Shown one piece after another: positions 60,993 through 64,000 of a stretch of 64,000 bases of DNA. The DNA is from Flavobacterium azooxidireducens (GTDB lineage: Bacteria > Bacteroidota > Bacteroidia > Flavobacteriales > Flavobacteriaceae). The number at the start of each line of letters is the position of its first letter. Positions within the stretch are counted from its first letter, which is position 1. The notes under the pieces are model-generated. The model made no database searches and was not told the origin of the DNA. It was given only the letters and a program-made list of their open reading frames with translations. Location of the stretch: assembly GCF_023195775.1 (NCBI RefSeq), contig NZ_CP096205.1, positions 1,798,001 to 1,862,000 on the forward strand. Direction: 5' to 3'. A program made the position numbers and the translations under genes.

Positions 60993-61023
60993 TGTAAATA
61001 ATATATAGTTAATAAATAAAAAT

Positions 61024-61056
61024 TCGTTGTCGGTTGTCGGTTTTCTGTTGTCGGTT
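61024..61056. repeat. Heptamer word repeat (gttgtcg) between rplY and prs
   Basis: gttgtcg units alternate with gttttct. It is a near copy of the phrase at 60274. Confidence 0.7.
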
Positions 61057-61114
61057 ATTTTATAGTCCAAATCACCAATTAACTTTCACCAATAACCCAT
61101 TACTTTTCAAAAGC

Positions 61115-62056
61115 CTACATTAAAAATTTTCCACTGATGGAATTGTTGTGTTGCACCATGTGCATTACTTCTGCAAAAAGCGGTGCACAACTCACCACTC
61201 TAATTTTGTTTGATTCTTTCTTTAACGGAATAGAATCGGTTACTATTAATTCGCTCAATTTTGATTTTTCGATTTTTTCGTACGCATCACCGGATAAAAT
61301 GGCGTGTGTACAAATGGCTCGAACGCTCAGAGCTCCTTTTTCAATCATTAAATCGGCTGCCTTTGCAAGGGTTCCGCCGGTATCAATCATATCGTCAACT
61401 AAAACGACGTTTCTTCCTTTTACTTCTCCGATAAGTTCCATTGTGTCGATCACGTTGGCAACTTTTCGTTGTTTGTAACAAATTACAACATCCGATTCTA
61501 GAAATTTAGAATAGGCGTAGGCTCTTTTGGAACCGCCCATGTCGGGTGAAGCAATCGTTAGATTCTCCAAATTCAAACTTTTTACATATGGCAAAAAGAT
61601 GGTGGAGGCAAACAAATGGTCAACCGGTTTTTCAAAGAAACCTTGAATCTGATCGGCGTGTAAATCCATCGTCATAATTCGGGTTGCTCCGGCTGTTTCT
61701 AATAATTTGGCTACTAGTTTTGCTCCAATTGGCACTCTTGGCTTGTCTTTTCTGTCTTGTCTGGCCCATCCGAAATAAGGAATTACAGGGGTAATGTGTC
61801 TGGCTGATGCTCTTTTGGCAGCATCAATCATTAACAAAAGTTCCATCAAATTGTCGGCACTTGGAAAAGTGGAACAAACGATGAAGACCCGCAATCCGCG
61901 AATGGATTCTTCAAAAGACGGTTGAAACTCACCGTCGCTATATTCAGAGAACGTTACTTTACCTAGCGGAATTCCATAGTTTTTGGCTATTTGTTCGGCT
62001 AAGTATACACTTTTTGAACAAGCAAATATCTTTGCTTCCGGTTCGTTGTGTGACAT
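61115..62056 (-). CDS. prs: Ribose-phosphate pyrophosphokinase Prs
   Basis: Makes PRPP from ribose 5-phosphate and ATP for nucleotide, His and Trp synthesis. 313 aa, normal length. It has DGEFQPSFEESIRG, YFGWARQDRKDKPR (ATP-binding flexible loop), MDLHADQIQGFF (metal-binding His) and the PRPP-binding VVLVDDMIDTGGT. A TAAATTTG -7 element lies at 62108-62115, divergent from the tRNA-Leu promoter. Likely co-transcribed with rplY. Confidence 0.97.
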   Translation of the reverse strand: MSHNEPEAKIFACSKSVYLAEQIAKNYGIPLGKVTFSEYSDGEFQPSFEESIRGLRVFIVCSTFPSADNLMELLLMIDAAKRASARHITPVIPYFGWARQDRKDKPRVPIGAKLVAKLLETAGATRIMTMDLHADQIQGFFEKPVDHLFASTIFLPYVKSLNLENLTIASPDMGGSKRAYAYSKFLESDVVICYKQRKVANVIDTMELIGEVKGRNVVLVDDMIDTGGTLAKAADLMIEKGALSVRAICTHAILSGDAYEKIEKSKLSELIVTDSIPLKKESNKIRVVSCAPLFAEVMHMVQHNNSISGKFLM

Positions 62057-62157
62057 TTTAATTCGTTGTTTTGTAGTTAGTTAGTTGTGTGTCGCCGAAA
62101 CGAGGTGCAAATTTAGAAATAAAAATCAACTTGGAAAGGATATTTTAGACAATTTTT

Positions 62158-62188
62158 TTGAAAAAGTAAAGAAAACTACTTACATTTG
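62158..62188 (+). promoter_or_regulatory. tRNA-Leu promoter
   Basis: TTG at 62158-62160, 20-nt spacer, TACATTTG at 62181-62188; the tRNA begins 24 nt later. Confidence 0.7.
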
Positions 62189-62211
62189 CACCCACAAATA
62201 AGCATCCTTAT

Positions 62212-62291
62212 GCCCGGATGGCGGAATTGGTAGACGCGCACGACTCAAACTCGTGTACTTAGGTGTGTGGGTTCGATTCCCACTCCGGGTA
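62212..62291 (+). tRNA. tRNA-Leu (anticodon CAA)
   Basis: 80 nt. Acceptor GCCCGGA pairs with TCCGGGT (one G-T). Anticodon stem CACGA/TCGTG closes the loop CTCAAAC, giving anticodon CAA. The T arm is GTGGG-TTCGATT-CCCAC. The long variable region and D arm with GGTAGACGC fit leucine. CCA is not encoded. Confidence 0.95.
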
Positions 62292-62293
62292 CA

Positions 62294-62322
62294 AAACCTC
62301 TCAGAAATGGGAGGTTTTTTTT
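62294..62322 (+). terminator. Terminator of tRNA-Leu
   Basis: aacctc...gaggtt hairpin followed by eight T. The GIY-YIG start codon at 62323 follows the T run directly. Confidence 0.75.
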
Positions 62323-62616
62323 ATGAAATTTAATTTAAAATTTATGTTTTTTGTATACGCCATATCAAGTTTAGAAAGAAATTATATCTATGTTGGATTA
62401 ACAGATGATTTAGAAAGACGTTTTTTTGAACATAATTCAGGAAGAAATAAAACAACAAAACCTTATAAGCCATTTAAGCTTATTTATTTTGAAGAATATG
62501 CCACAAGAATAGAAGCTCGAACAAGAGAAAAATATTTTAAATCAGGCATTGGAAAAGAAAAGTTGAAAGTTATTAGAGATAATTTTGAGAATGAAGACTC
62601 AAACTCGTGTACTTAG
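62323..62616 (+). CDS. GIY-YIG domain protein ending in tRNA-derived codons
   Basis: About 97 aa from 62323 (MKFNLKFMFFVYAI); 62344 (MFFVYAI) is an equally good start and matches the usual family N-terminus. The frame continues upstream into the tRNA, which is not coding. GIY-YIG features: VYAISSLERNYIYVGLTDDLERRFFEHNSG (Y...YVG and the Arg), then EEYATRIEARTREKYFKSG with the family Glu and Tyr. Small stand-alone members are YhbQ-like nucleases of uncertain role. The last six codons (DSNSCT) and the stop TAG are bases of a duplicated tRNA-Leu 3' half. No promoter was seen; it follows the tRNA terminator immediately. Confidence 0.85.
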   Translation: MKFNLKFMFFVYAISSLERNYIYVGLTDDLERRFFEHNSGRNKTTKPYKPFKLIYFEEYATRIEARTREKYFKSGIGKEKLKVIRDNFENEDSNSCT

Positions 62617-62695
62617 GTGTATGGGTTCGACCTGCCTGCCGGCAGGCAGGTTCCCACTCCGGGTACAAAACCTCTCAGAAATGGAAGGTTTTTTT
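62596..62695 (+). repeat. Partial duplicate of tRNA-Leu 3' half and terminator
   Basis: An 80-bp stretch copies 62242-62321 (anticodon loop through T-run) with two base changes, plus a 20-bp insertion in the T loop. It lacks the 5' acceptor and D arm, so it is not a functional tRNA. Confidence 0.92.
62631..62650. repeat. 20-bp perfect palindrome inserted in the tRNA-Leu copy
   Basis: cctgcctgccggcaggcagg is its own reverse complement and splits ttcga from ttcccac exactly. The intact tRNA at 62212 lacks it. I see no other copy in the window. Confidence 0.9.
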
Positions 62696-62846
62696 GTTTT
62701 TAAAACTCCAACTTTTTTACTCTGACCTTAATAGATTAATTTAATTAACTACAAATTACTTCTATTTTTATTTTATATTTAAAAAAAACTTATTTTTAAC
62801 TGTTTACTTTGTTTGAATAAGGACACTAACAATTTAAAGAAGTTTT

Positions 62847-64000
62847 ATGAAATATGTTGTAGTTGTTTTGTTGAGCATTATGCTGAATTTATCATTGCAT
62901 AGTCAAAATAGTGATAGAGAAATGCTTTTGAATAAAGCAGATTCTTTGGATAAAAGCAAAAATTATAAAGCTTCCTTACCACTATGGGAAAATCTCAAAA
63001 CGAGCAATAAAGAAGGGGATGTTGCTTTTTATACCGCCCGATATCTTTATGCAAAAGGAGGAATTGAAATTGAAAACAACAATGTTGCTGGAGCTGTTTC
63101 GATTTTTGAACAAGCAATTCCATTTATTTCAAAGATTAAAGTATTGGATAGCAATAAAAAGTTTATCAGTGAATTTTATAGTGATTTGTACCTTTCAACC
63201 GGATTTTCCGGAAATTGGGAAAAAGCACTCAACTACGCCAAAACAGGATATGACTTCACGGCTAAAAATCTTCCTAAAGACAAAGACTTAATTAATTTTG
63301 TTCAAGATCAAGGTTATATTTTAAAGCAGCTTCGTAGGTATGAAGAATCAATTATAGCTTATGAAAAGGCTTTGAAATTGGCATACAAATTTTATGCAAA
63401 AGATTATTTTCGCTTAGGAATTGTTCACAACGGCTTGGCAACTGCCTATTCAGATTTACACTTTCATAATCAATCATTGTATCATTACACTAAAGCTCTT
63501 GAATTTCACAAAAAGTCAAATGATATAGATAAAAGTTATGTTGTTTCTTCTTCCAACAATACCATTTGGGAAAATTTAAGCTACGGAGATGAAAAGCAAG
63601 CAAAAATCGTTTTAGATAACTTGAATTCAAATTTTAGTAAATGGTATGCCGAAGAGGGTTTTGCTTCCAAAACAAAAAGAGGCGATAAAATCGAAAAAGA
63701 GCACTACAAAATGCTAAAGTATCTTTCAAACTTACGGTATAACAATAAGATAAATAAGAATAATTTCGCCAAAAATTACTTGGATTCTGTTGTTTTGGTT
63801 TTTGATAAATTACCCGAAGATTATAAACCAAAATTATATGAGCCAATGCTTTTGGCAAGGTTTGATTATGAAGATGTTTTTTATAAAAACAATGTTTTAG
63901 ACGAAAATCAAATCAATCAACACATTGCTTTTAATAAAAAAACTCTTGAATTGGCAAGAAAGTATAATTCTAAACATGATGAGTTAGTAGCTTGTTTAAA
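62847..64000 (+). CDS. Exported TPR-repeat protein, 3' end outside the window
   Basis: Open from ATG 62847 to the window end (384 codons and counting). Starts MKYVVVVLLSIMLNLSLHSQ, a signal peptide. The rest is helical with TPR-like pairs, for example NYAKTGYDFTAKNLP, GYILKQLRRYEESIIAYEKA and NGLATAYSDLHFHNQSLYHYTKALEFHKKS. Such architectures in this phylum often continue into a CHAT peptidase domain or a sensor kinase; which one cannot be seen here. No match to neighbours. Function unassigned. Confidence 0.8.
   Translation, partial: MKYVVVVLLSIMLNLSLHSQNSDREMLLNKADSLDKSKNYKASLPLWENLKTSNKEGDVAFYTARYLYAKGGIEIENNNVAGAVSIFEQAIPFISKIKVLDSNKKFISEFYSDLYLSTGFSGNWEKALNYAKTGYDFTAKNLPKDKDLINFVQDQGYILKQLRRYEESIIAYEKALKLAYKFYAKDYFRLGIVHNGLATAYSDLHFHNQSLYHYTKALEFHKKSNDIDKSYVVSSSNNTIWENLSYGDEKQAKIVLDNLNSNFSKWYAEEGFASKTKRGDKIEKEHYKMLKYLSNLRYNNKINKNNFAKNYLDSVVLVFDKLPEDYKPKLYEPMLLARFDYEDVFYKNNVLDENQINQHIAFNKKTLELARKYNSKHDELVACL

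Follow-up and report, generated by a model that had tools for sequence, protein, structure and literature searches.

The window analysed here, a stretch of 64,000 nucleotides from the chromosome of Flavobacterium azooxidireducens, raises the question of how a small GIY-YIG nuclease gene came to lie between an intact tRNA-Leu(CAA) gene and a broken copy of the same tRNA, with its own stop codon inside the copy. An earlier note on this DNA had proposed a homing-like, tRNA-targeted mobile cassette, with tandem duplication followed by gene capture as the alternative. We compared the locus with its counterparts in the same genome, in the genus and in other phyla.

The tRNA-Leu(CAA) locus of the window

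The locus comprises the following features.

61115..62056, minus strand: conserved neighbour, named from its own sequence and presumably prs (phosphoribosylpyrophosphate synthetase); anchor for the empty-site search
62212..62292, plus strand: intact tRNA-Leu(CAA) (ARAGORN; Rfam RF00005, 57.3 bits)
62293..62322, plus strand: intrinsic terminator of the tRNA, doubling as left end of the nuclease gene (read off the sequence)
62323..62616, plus strand: GIY-YIG nuclease ORF (PF01541, E 1.6e-17)
62596..62630, plus strand: left piece of the orphan tRNA-Leu, tRNA positions 31-65 (34/35 identical to the intact tRNA)
62631..62650, no strand: perfect 20-bp palindrome CCTGCCTGCCGGCAGGCAGG within the orphan T loop (sequence and shuffle test)
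62651..62666, plus strand: right piece of the orphan tRNA-Leu, tRNA positions 66-81 (sequence comparison)
62667..62695, plus strand: second copy of the tRNA terminator (sequence comparison)

The nuclease frame starts at the ATG at 62323 or at 62344 and stops with TAG at 62614-62616, inside the orphan tRNA. Coordinates and sequence identity confirmed the order described earlier, namely the intact tRNA with its terminator, the GIY-YIG gene and the partial tRNA copy, and the last six codons and stop of the frame (GAC TCA AAC TCG TGT ACT TAG, 62596-62616) are tRNA bases, as had been noticed; the repeat period of the tRNA/nuclease/orphan unit was measured as 354 bp, in agreement with the cassette length of about 354 bp given then. 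The 3′ orphan had likewise been recognised, but the 20-bp palindrome splitting its T loop, a feature central to the reading given below, had been missed. This palindrome, CCTGCCTGCCGGCAGGCAGG, was present in 0 of 100 shuffles of the window, even allowing 3 mismatches, and has 10 copies with at most 1 mismatch in the genome (reversed control, 0). In a genome search with the tRNA sequence, the intact tRNA-Leu(CAA) was the sole full copy, and the other match was the orphan.

The window protein is a member of the GIY-YIG superfamily, and PF01541 is its only Pfam match. The GIY-YIG domain is recognised by a conserved set of Tyr, Tyr, Arg and Glu residues; in the window protein Y5, Y16, G18, R26, H30 and E62 are invariant among 14 aligned sequences, and we take these to hold the catalytic roles. 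The fold alignment left out L211, L219 and L222 (stops in frame), L214, L217, L223, L224, L228, L231, L236, L240, L266, L267, L279 and L280 and added L270 and L272, and its window row begins at residue 2 of the shorter ORF. An AlphaFold2 model of the protein (89 residues, mean pLDDT 87.9) gave no match at E ≤ 0.001 in a PDB fold search, the best being UPF0213 entry 1zg2 (E 0.0066), followed by the I-TevI catalytic domain (E 0.3). Sequence comparison placed the UPF0213 chains 1zg2 and 1ywl closest among solved structures, with SLX1 next.

Familiar kinds of element were considered and rejected. The score against the group I intron-encoded endonuclease model TIGR01453 was 22.1 bits (cut-off, 56.05), and an Rfam search of positions 61000-64000 (E ≤ 0.1) returned the tRNA and one sub-threshold match over it, and no intron. 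A tRNA-integrating genomic island with an integrase does not fit, as the GIY-YIG gene is the sole ORF of at least 60 codons between the tRNA copies. A plasmid search with the window protein gave no match.

The prs/tRNA-Leu(CAA) locus was compared in 30 of the 54 genomes with a prs match. The nuclease was present in 1 of the 30, the window only; no GIY-YIG gene was found at the other 29 loci, for which the downstream span was 700 bp in 26 and 512, 146 and 89 bp in three. Two of these 29 nuclease-free loci carry a short orphan. Thus, occupied and empty alleles of the same site both exist, and the empty sites that the earlier note had proposed to seek in relatives were found. At the same locus (L171-L200), two strongly different tRNA-Leu(CAA) alleles, differing from the anticodon arm to the T arm, are dispersed across the prs tree. 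Because of this scatter in the test of allele co-inheritance, we make no claim that the element replaced the tRNA.

A PF01541 search of the complete 3.82-Mb genome returned six matches, four of which are short frames. The second short frame is flanked by an intact tRNA-Met on one side and, on the other, by a copy of that tRNA in which the palindrome TCCGCCCAGGCGGA alters the anticodon arm; another copy, truncated, is located upstream. Another is adjoined by apparent tRNA-Asn remnants, recognised by eye (automatic labelling gave no flag). The fourth (L002, G000:C1:2249462-2250211), assigned to class B (loci outside the tRNA-linked group), sits among copies of the repeat GTCATTCCGTAGGAATCTC, which has 27 genome copies with at most 2 mismatches (reversed control, 0); a second GTCATTCCGTAGGAATCTC cluster is located elsewhere in the genome (G000:C1:3204828-3206422). 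Palindromes of the family found at the window locus (P1, see below) also occur in this genome at sites where ARAGORN calls no tRNA (L007-L019), many with GACC...GGTC-like flanks.

Two loci carry tRNA fragments and no GIY-YIG gene in the stretch shown. At L160 (about 1395-1680), an intact fMet tRNA stands between two palindrome-bearing broken copies, possibly non-autonomous or nuclease-less remains; the tRNA-Asn locus L152 has one such copy upstream.

Recurrence in the genus and in other phyla

The genus set comprised 125 loci, taken as the best-scoring matches from 61 genomes with short frames preferred. Six of the 125 had no profile-matching ORF and were dropped, leaving 119, and one more lacked the flank needed for the bracket test. 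A same-strand repeat common to both 500-bp flanks (E ≤ 1e-3) was found at 82/118 GIY-YIG loci, against 3/101 control positions in the window. With 350-bp flanks, the counts at the same threshold were 80/116 around the gene and 1/108 at control positions placed elsewhere in those loci, and at E ≤ 1e-6 they were 71/116 and 0/108. By class, the repeats at E ≤ 1e-6 divide into 32/42 tRNA-linked loci and 39/74 class B loci. The class B repeats were tested for perfect stems, and 12 of 39 beat at least 19 of their 20 shuffles; because of this result, they are not taken as generally palindromic.

Same-strand tRNA sequence lies beside the gene at 43 of the 119 genus loci (best matches), on both sides in 32, upstream only in 7 and downstream only in 4, and the best tRNA match on each side is always on the strand of the gene. 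For a random gene, a same-strand tRNA within 400 bp upstream would be expected in about 0.2% of cases (an estimate from about 42 tRNAs and a 3.8-Mb genome). Ten tRNA genes are targets in the genus, namely Leu-CAA, initiator and elongator Met, Ala-GGC, Val-TAC, Pro-TGG, Asp-GTC, Arg-TCG and Asn-GTT, with Arg-TCT at L102. In downstream orphans of the genus the anticodon arm is commonly swapped for a palindrome, and some have a second palindrome in the T loop; 12 of 44 genus loci fit neither orphan arrangement. ARAGORN calls tRNA-Lys(TTT) over palindrome-bearing broken copies at L102 (1745-1822, gene orientation) and L080 (a full-length 100% match), so that some broken copies are taken for extra tRNA genes by tRNA finders, and public tRNA counts in the genus may be inflated.

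Two tRNA-Pro loci carry tandem arrays: L101 has five genes, spaced at 350 bp, behind an intact tRNA-Pro, and L134 has six at 357-359 bp, one of them with a stop in frame. Arrays of this size could be expected if the nuclease were a domesticated amplifier, whose DNA break beside a tRNA would let the cell multiply that tRNA, for example against tRNA-cleaving toxins or defences; in phage T6, the GIY-YIG enzyme SegB, encoded beside tRNA genes, is described as driving tandem amplification of tRNA and segB (PMC13096335). In the arrays at L101, L134 and L038, however, the repeated unit contains a broken tRNA, not an intact one, so that tRNA dosage does not rise, and the phage matches of the window protein are distant (14/50,697 records at E ≤ 1e-3, 30-42% identity). 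We consider such an amplifier unlikely, and return to the homing-type reading below.

Three close proteins were used to scan named genomes; this gave 227 relatives, and the best 80 were taken further. These best 80 come from Bacteroidota, Ignavibacteriota (Ignavibacteria), Chlorobiota and many candidate-phyla bacteria. Among them, 62 loci have an ARAGORN tRNA on one side of the gene and an orphan on the other, with the orphan upstream in 40 and downstream in 22. This split is approximate, since assignment began with the downstream arrangement and some of the called tRNAs may be palindrome-bearing copies, as the 95-nt call at L230 appears to be; the remaining 18 of the best 80 fit neither arrangement. 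The 3′-half duplication proposed earlier therefore holds for the window, where a 3′ orphan lies downstream, and is too narrow elsewhere, where the orphan can be a 5′ part lying upstream. Orphan edges are scattered over the tRNA with no single exact site; an exact insertion point at the anticodon loop was rejected on this ground, and we place insertion no more precisely than in the middle of the tRNA. By all three counts (tRNA beside the gene in the genus, orphan arrangements in named loci, flank repeats against same-locus controls), GIY-YIG genes are strongly enriched beside tRNA duplicates, the second check that the earlier note had suggested.

The nearest named relative among the best 80 is that of Flavobacterium sp. 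UBA2787 (92% protein identity), with closely similar flanks. The window protein is 71% identical to proteins of Paceibacter and a Paceibacterota bacterium, against 46 and 55% for two Arg-type proteins of its own genus. In a tree of P1-type proteins (79 of 83 rows), there are at least 9 changes of tRNA (22-26 in five shuffles) and 14 changes of orphan side (19-22 in five shuffles). Candidate-phyla proteins are intermixed with FCB proteins (9 changes, only 1 of which strongly supported branches require).

Protein lineages, palindromes and clean insertions

A tree of 138 of the 140 proteins was built from protein sequence alone; the alignment is short, many forks are weak, and the row L063_1 is a spurious frame. 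Labels assigned by hand were those of L004 (tRNA-linked, by eye), of L003 (elongator Met), of L102 (kept separate), and of L075, L135 and other loci labelled Lys-TTT (changed to Val). One branch (SH-aLRT 96) parts 61 tRNA-linked proteins from the 77 others, and the Val, Met, Ala, Asp and Arg groups each lie on one side of a branch (support 63, 88, 98, 97 and 79, respectively). The 12 target groups need 11 changes on the tree, which is the minimum, compared with a shuffled mean of 58.3, and Pro needs 4 changes. The window protein forms a long branch.

In the Val, Met and Ala clades, the nuclease and prs have diverged to a similar degree at synonymous sites, with both near saturation, so that vertical descent with frequent loss is possible in the genus; no recent transfer within the genus was seen in this comparison. 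The homing-like mobile cassette of the earlier note is partly supported: the reading withstood both refuting conditions named there, given the empty sites and the enrichment at tRNA duplicates, and the divergence in these three clades gives no evidence of movement. The window protein gave dN/dS values of about 0.15 against L203 and about 0.19 against L204, and medians for pairs in the usable range were 0.14 for Val, 0.11 for Met, 0.17 for Ala (2 pairs), 0.55 for Pro (5 pairs) and 0.45 for class B. These values indicate purifying selection, and hence a functional nuclease in at least several lineages.

Five palindrome families, P1 to P5, were written after the genus data had been viewed, and the loose P1 pattern after some named loci had been viewed; the match between palindrome and lineage in the genus is therefore descriptive, the motif families being defined from the same data. 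P2 occurs near the gene in 9/10 Val and 6/6 Ala loci, P3 in 7/9 Met loci, P4 in 4/4 Asp loci, and P1 in 2/2 Arg loci and the window locus. The Pro loci fall into two parts of the tree: in the clade of L060, L094, L101, L134 and L107 (support 99), P5 is near the gene in 4/5, the exception being L107 with mixed palindromes, and in L063, L100 and L110, which group with Val-type proteins (support 91), P2 is found in 3/3. Where two protein lineages share a tRNA, the palindrome thus goes with the protein (p 0.029 for 4 + 3 loci, small numbers). L004, L054, L064 and L085 carry none of the five families.

The P1 sequence was known before the named set was chosen. In that set (best 80 of 227), P1 lies within 250 bp of the gene at 54 of 80 loci, and the other families at 2, 1, 0 and 0. 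Overlapping start counts gave 108 P1 in 38.0 kb near the gene and 3 in 99.3 kb far from it, a density about 94-fold higher. P1 is present with Leu (16/23), Arg (24/32), Asn (1/1) and Lys (1/1) targets and at loci with no arrangement assigned (12/18), and was not found with Ser (0/1), Glu (0/2) or Gln (0/2) in the named set. Genome-wide co-occurrence of P1 with a P1-type nuclease is weak (2/3 against 2/58 genomes, p 0.0096).

Rickettsia palindromic elements are small inserting elements, and the palindromes here could similarly be an independent inserting element that settles in dispensable tRNA copies, the nuclease being a separate passenger. P1 copies outside tRNA contexts in the window's genome fit this account, as do two genomes with P1-like palindromes and no P1-type nuclease profile match at E ≤ 1e-12. 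Yet the palindrome tracks the place of the protein in the tree at one and the same tRNA and persists when the tRNA changes, and its concentration near the gene relative to distant positions in the same loci also argues against independence, which we judge improbable.

Within 300 bp of the gene, 72 P1 palindromes were found at 81 loci (80 named and the window). For 31 of the 72, an exact 10+10-nt empty site exists in the same locus, and 22 of these 31 inserts are 20 bp long; the other 41 have no exact empty site in their own locus. The test allows 64 boundaries, and control windows outside the gene with equal boundary freedom gave an empty site in 10/990 (a one-boundary control gave 4/1620). 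Three of the 31 (L219 twice, L281) look artefactual, with repeats inside the palindrome, which leaves 28. At the empty site the left flank abuts the right one directly, which means that the target is not duplicated. Insertion sites recur in the D loop (GGAA^TTGG, TGGATA^GAAT), T loop (GTTCGA^TTCC) and anticodon loop (ATCAGA^TTTCGG), as placed on the cloverleaf by hand. The palindrome of the window itself fails the 10+10 test, by a single base of its left flank.

These insertions bear on the alternative raised from the outset, in which unequal recombination duplicated the tRNA region and the nuclease was captured between the copies by chance, with no mobility and the duplicates decaying. Tandem arrays with near-exact periods, and orphans without a nuclease such as those at the fMet and Asn loci L160 and L152, are what it would produce. 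Unequal crossing-over, however, does not yield clean palindrome insertions, and chance capture fails to explain why one arrangement is found again and again at many tRNA genes, across Bacteroidota, Ignavibacteria, Chlorobiota and candidate phyla, with lineage-specific targets and matched palindromes; we regard it as quite unlikely.

Possible mechanism and comparison with known systems

Taken together, the cassette is probably one of a large family of minimal selfish elements of the homing type, each consisting of a GIY-YIG gene set between tRNA copies and a palindrome characteristic of its nuclease. From sequence comparison, we infer cleavage, the order of events, mobility and the role of the palindrome as follows. 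The element would comprise one small GIY-YIG gene (about 80-100 codons), copies of the target tRNA on both sides, and the palindrome of its nuclease lineage. The nuclease may cut or nick tRNA genes in mid-gene, from the D loop to the anticodon loop, and during repair the gene would enter together with a copy of one tRNA half, which would rebuild a complete tRNA at one end of the gene and leave an orphan half at the opposite end. If the 3′ half is brought, the upstream tRNA would be whole and a 3′ orphan would lie downstream, as in the window; if the 5′ half is brought, the orphan would lie upstream. One kind of entry event could thus account for both orphan arrangements. The orphan, now dispensable, would be free to take a palindrome. 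As the palindrome pairs with the protein lineage, it is probably a DNA hairpin on which the enzyme acts, and which the nuclease might recognise or mobilise in the manner of REP hairpins with RAYT nucleases. Repeat-driven recombination would then give rise to tandem arrays with units of about 350 bp.

A broader proposal is put forward more tentatively, as plausible yet somewhat short of probable. The elements may represent a new kind of selfish element in which GIY-YIG nucleases each recognise their own palindrome, taking the role that HUH enzymes have in REPs; tRNA loops would serve as landing sites, the palindrome would move as a clean insertion of about 20 bp without target duplication, and the tRNA branch would be one arm, the other being tied to dispersed repeats.

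If such a family exists, it would explain why broken tRNA genes and palindromes are widespread among the genomes of Bacteroidota and candidate phyla, and small GIY-YIG proteins would gain a testable role. Nuclease-palindrome pairs occur naturally, among them two protein lineages that share tRNA-Pro and differ in palindrome, and they make recognition directly testable. A literature search, the coverage of which left out most subscription papers and bioRxiv preprints, returned no description of a tRNA-bracketed GIY-YIG element with a palindrome.

In RAYT/REP/REPIN systems, each nuclease lineage has its own palindrome, copies of which flank the gene and are also dispersed through the genome. The cassette resembles them in these respects, the pairing of nuclease lineage and cognate palindrome being here by sequence only, and differs in that RAYT is an HUH tyrosine transposase, whereas the cassette encodes a GIY-YIG protein and its palindromes lie in tRNA gene copies. 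Membership in this family was rejected, as there is no HUH transposase and GIY-YIG is the only domain matched. In the mitochondria of the fungus Allomyces, a mobile endonuclease ORF (atp6/ORF360) reportedly carries the 3′ end of the gene that it enters. There too the element is said to supply a replacement for the interrupted part of the gene, with the old part left behind; the targets are protein-coding organelle genes, and palindrome pairing is not known to be part of that system. The UPF0213 entries 1zg2 and 1ywl are the closest solved proteins to the window protein by sequence, and 1zg2 also by fold; we know of no association of either with tRNA or palindromes.

The closest described case is phage SegB, compared here by its published description (PMC13096335), where recombination in T-even phages between the 5′ region of a tRNA and the 3′ end of the nuclease gene is also reported. 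The word stem "palindrom" occurs 0 times in the main text of that paper. SegB and the other free-standing GIY-YIG endonucleases of T-even phages, so described, share with the cassette a single GIY-YIG gene by tRNA genes and tandem amplification; the cassette differs in being chromosomal, in lying between an intact and an orphan tRNA, and in having a lineage-specific palindrome. It would also be a chromosomal counterpart of the tRNA amplification recently demonstrated for SegB in phage.
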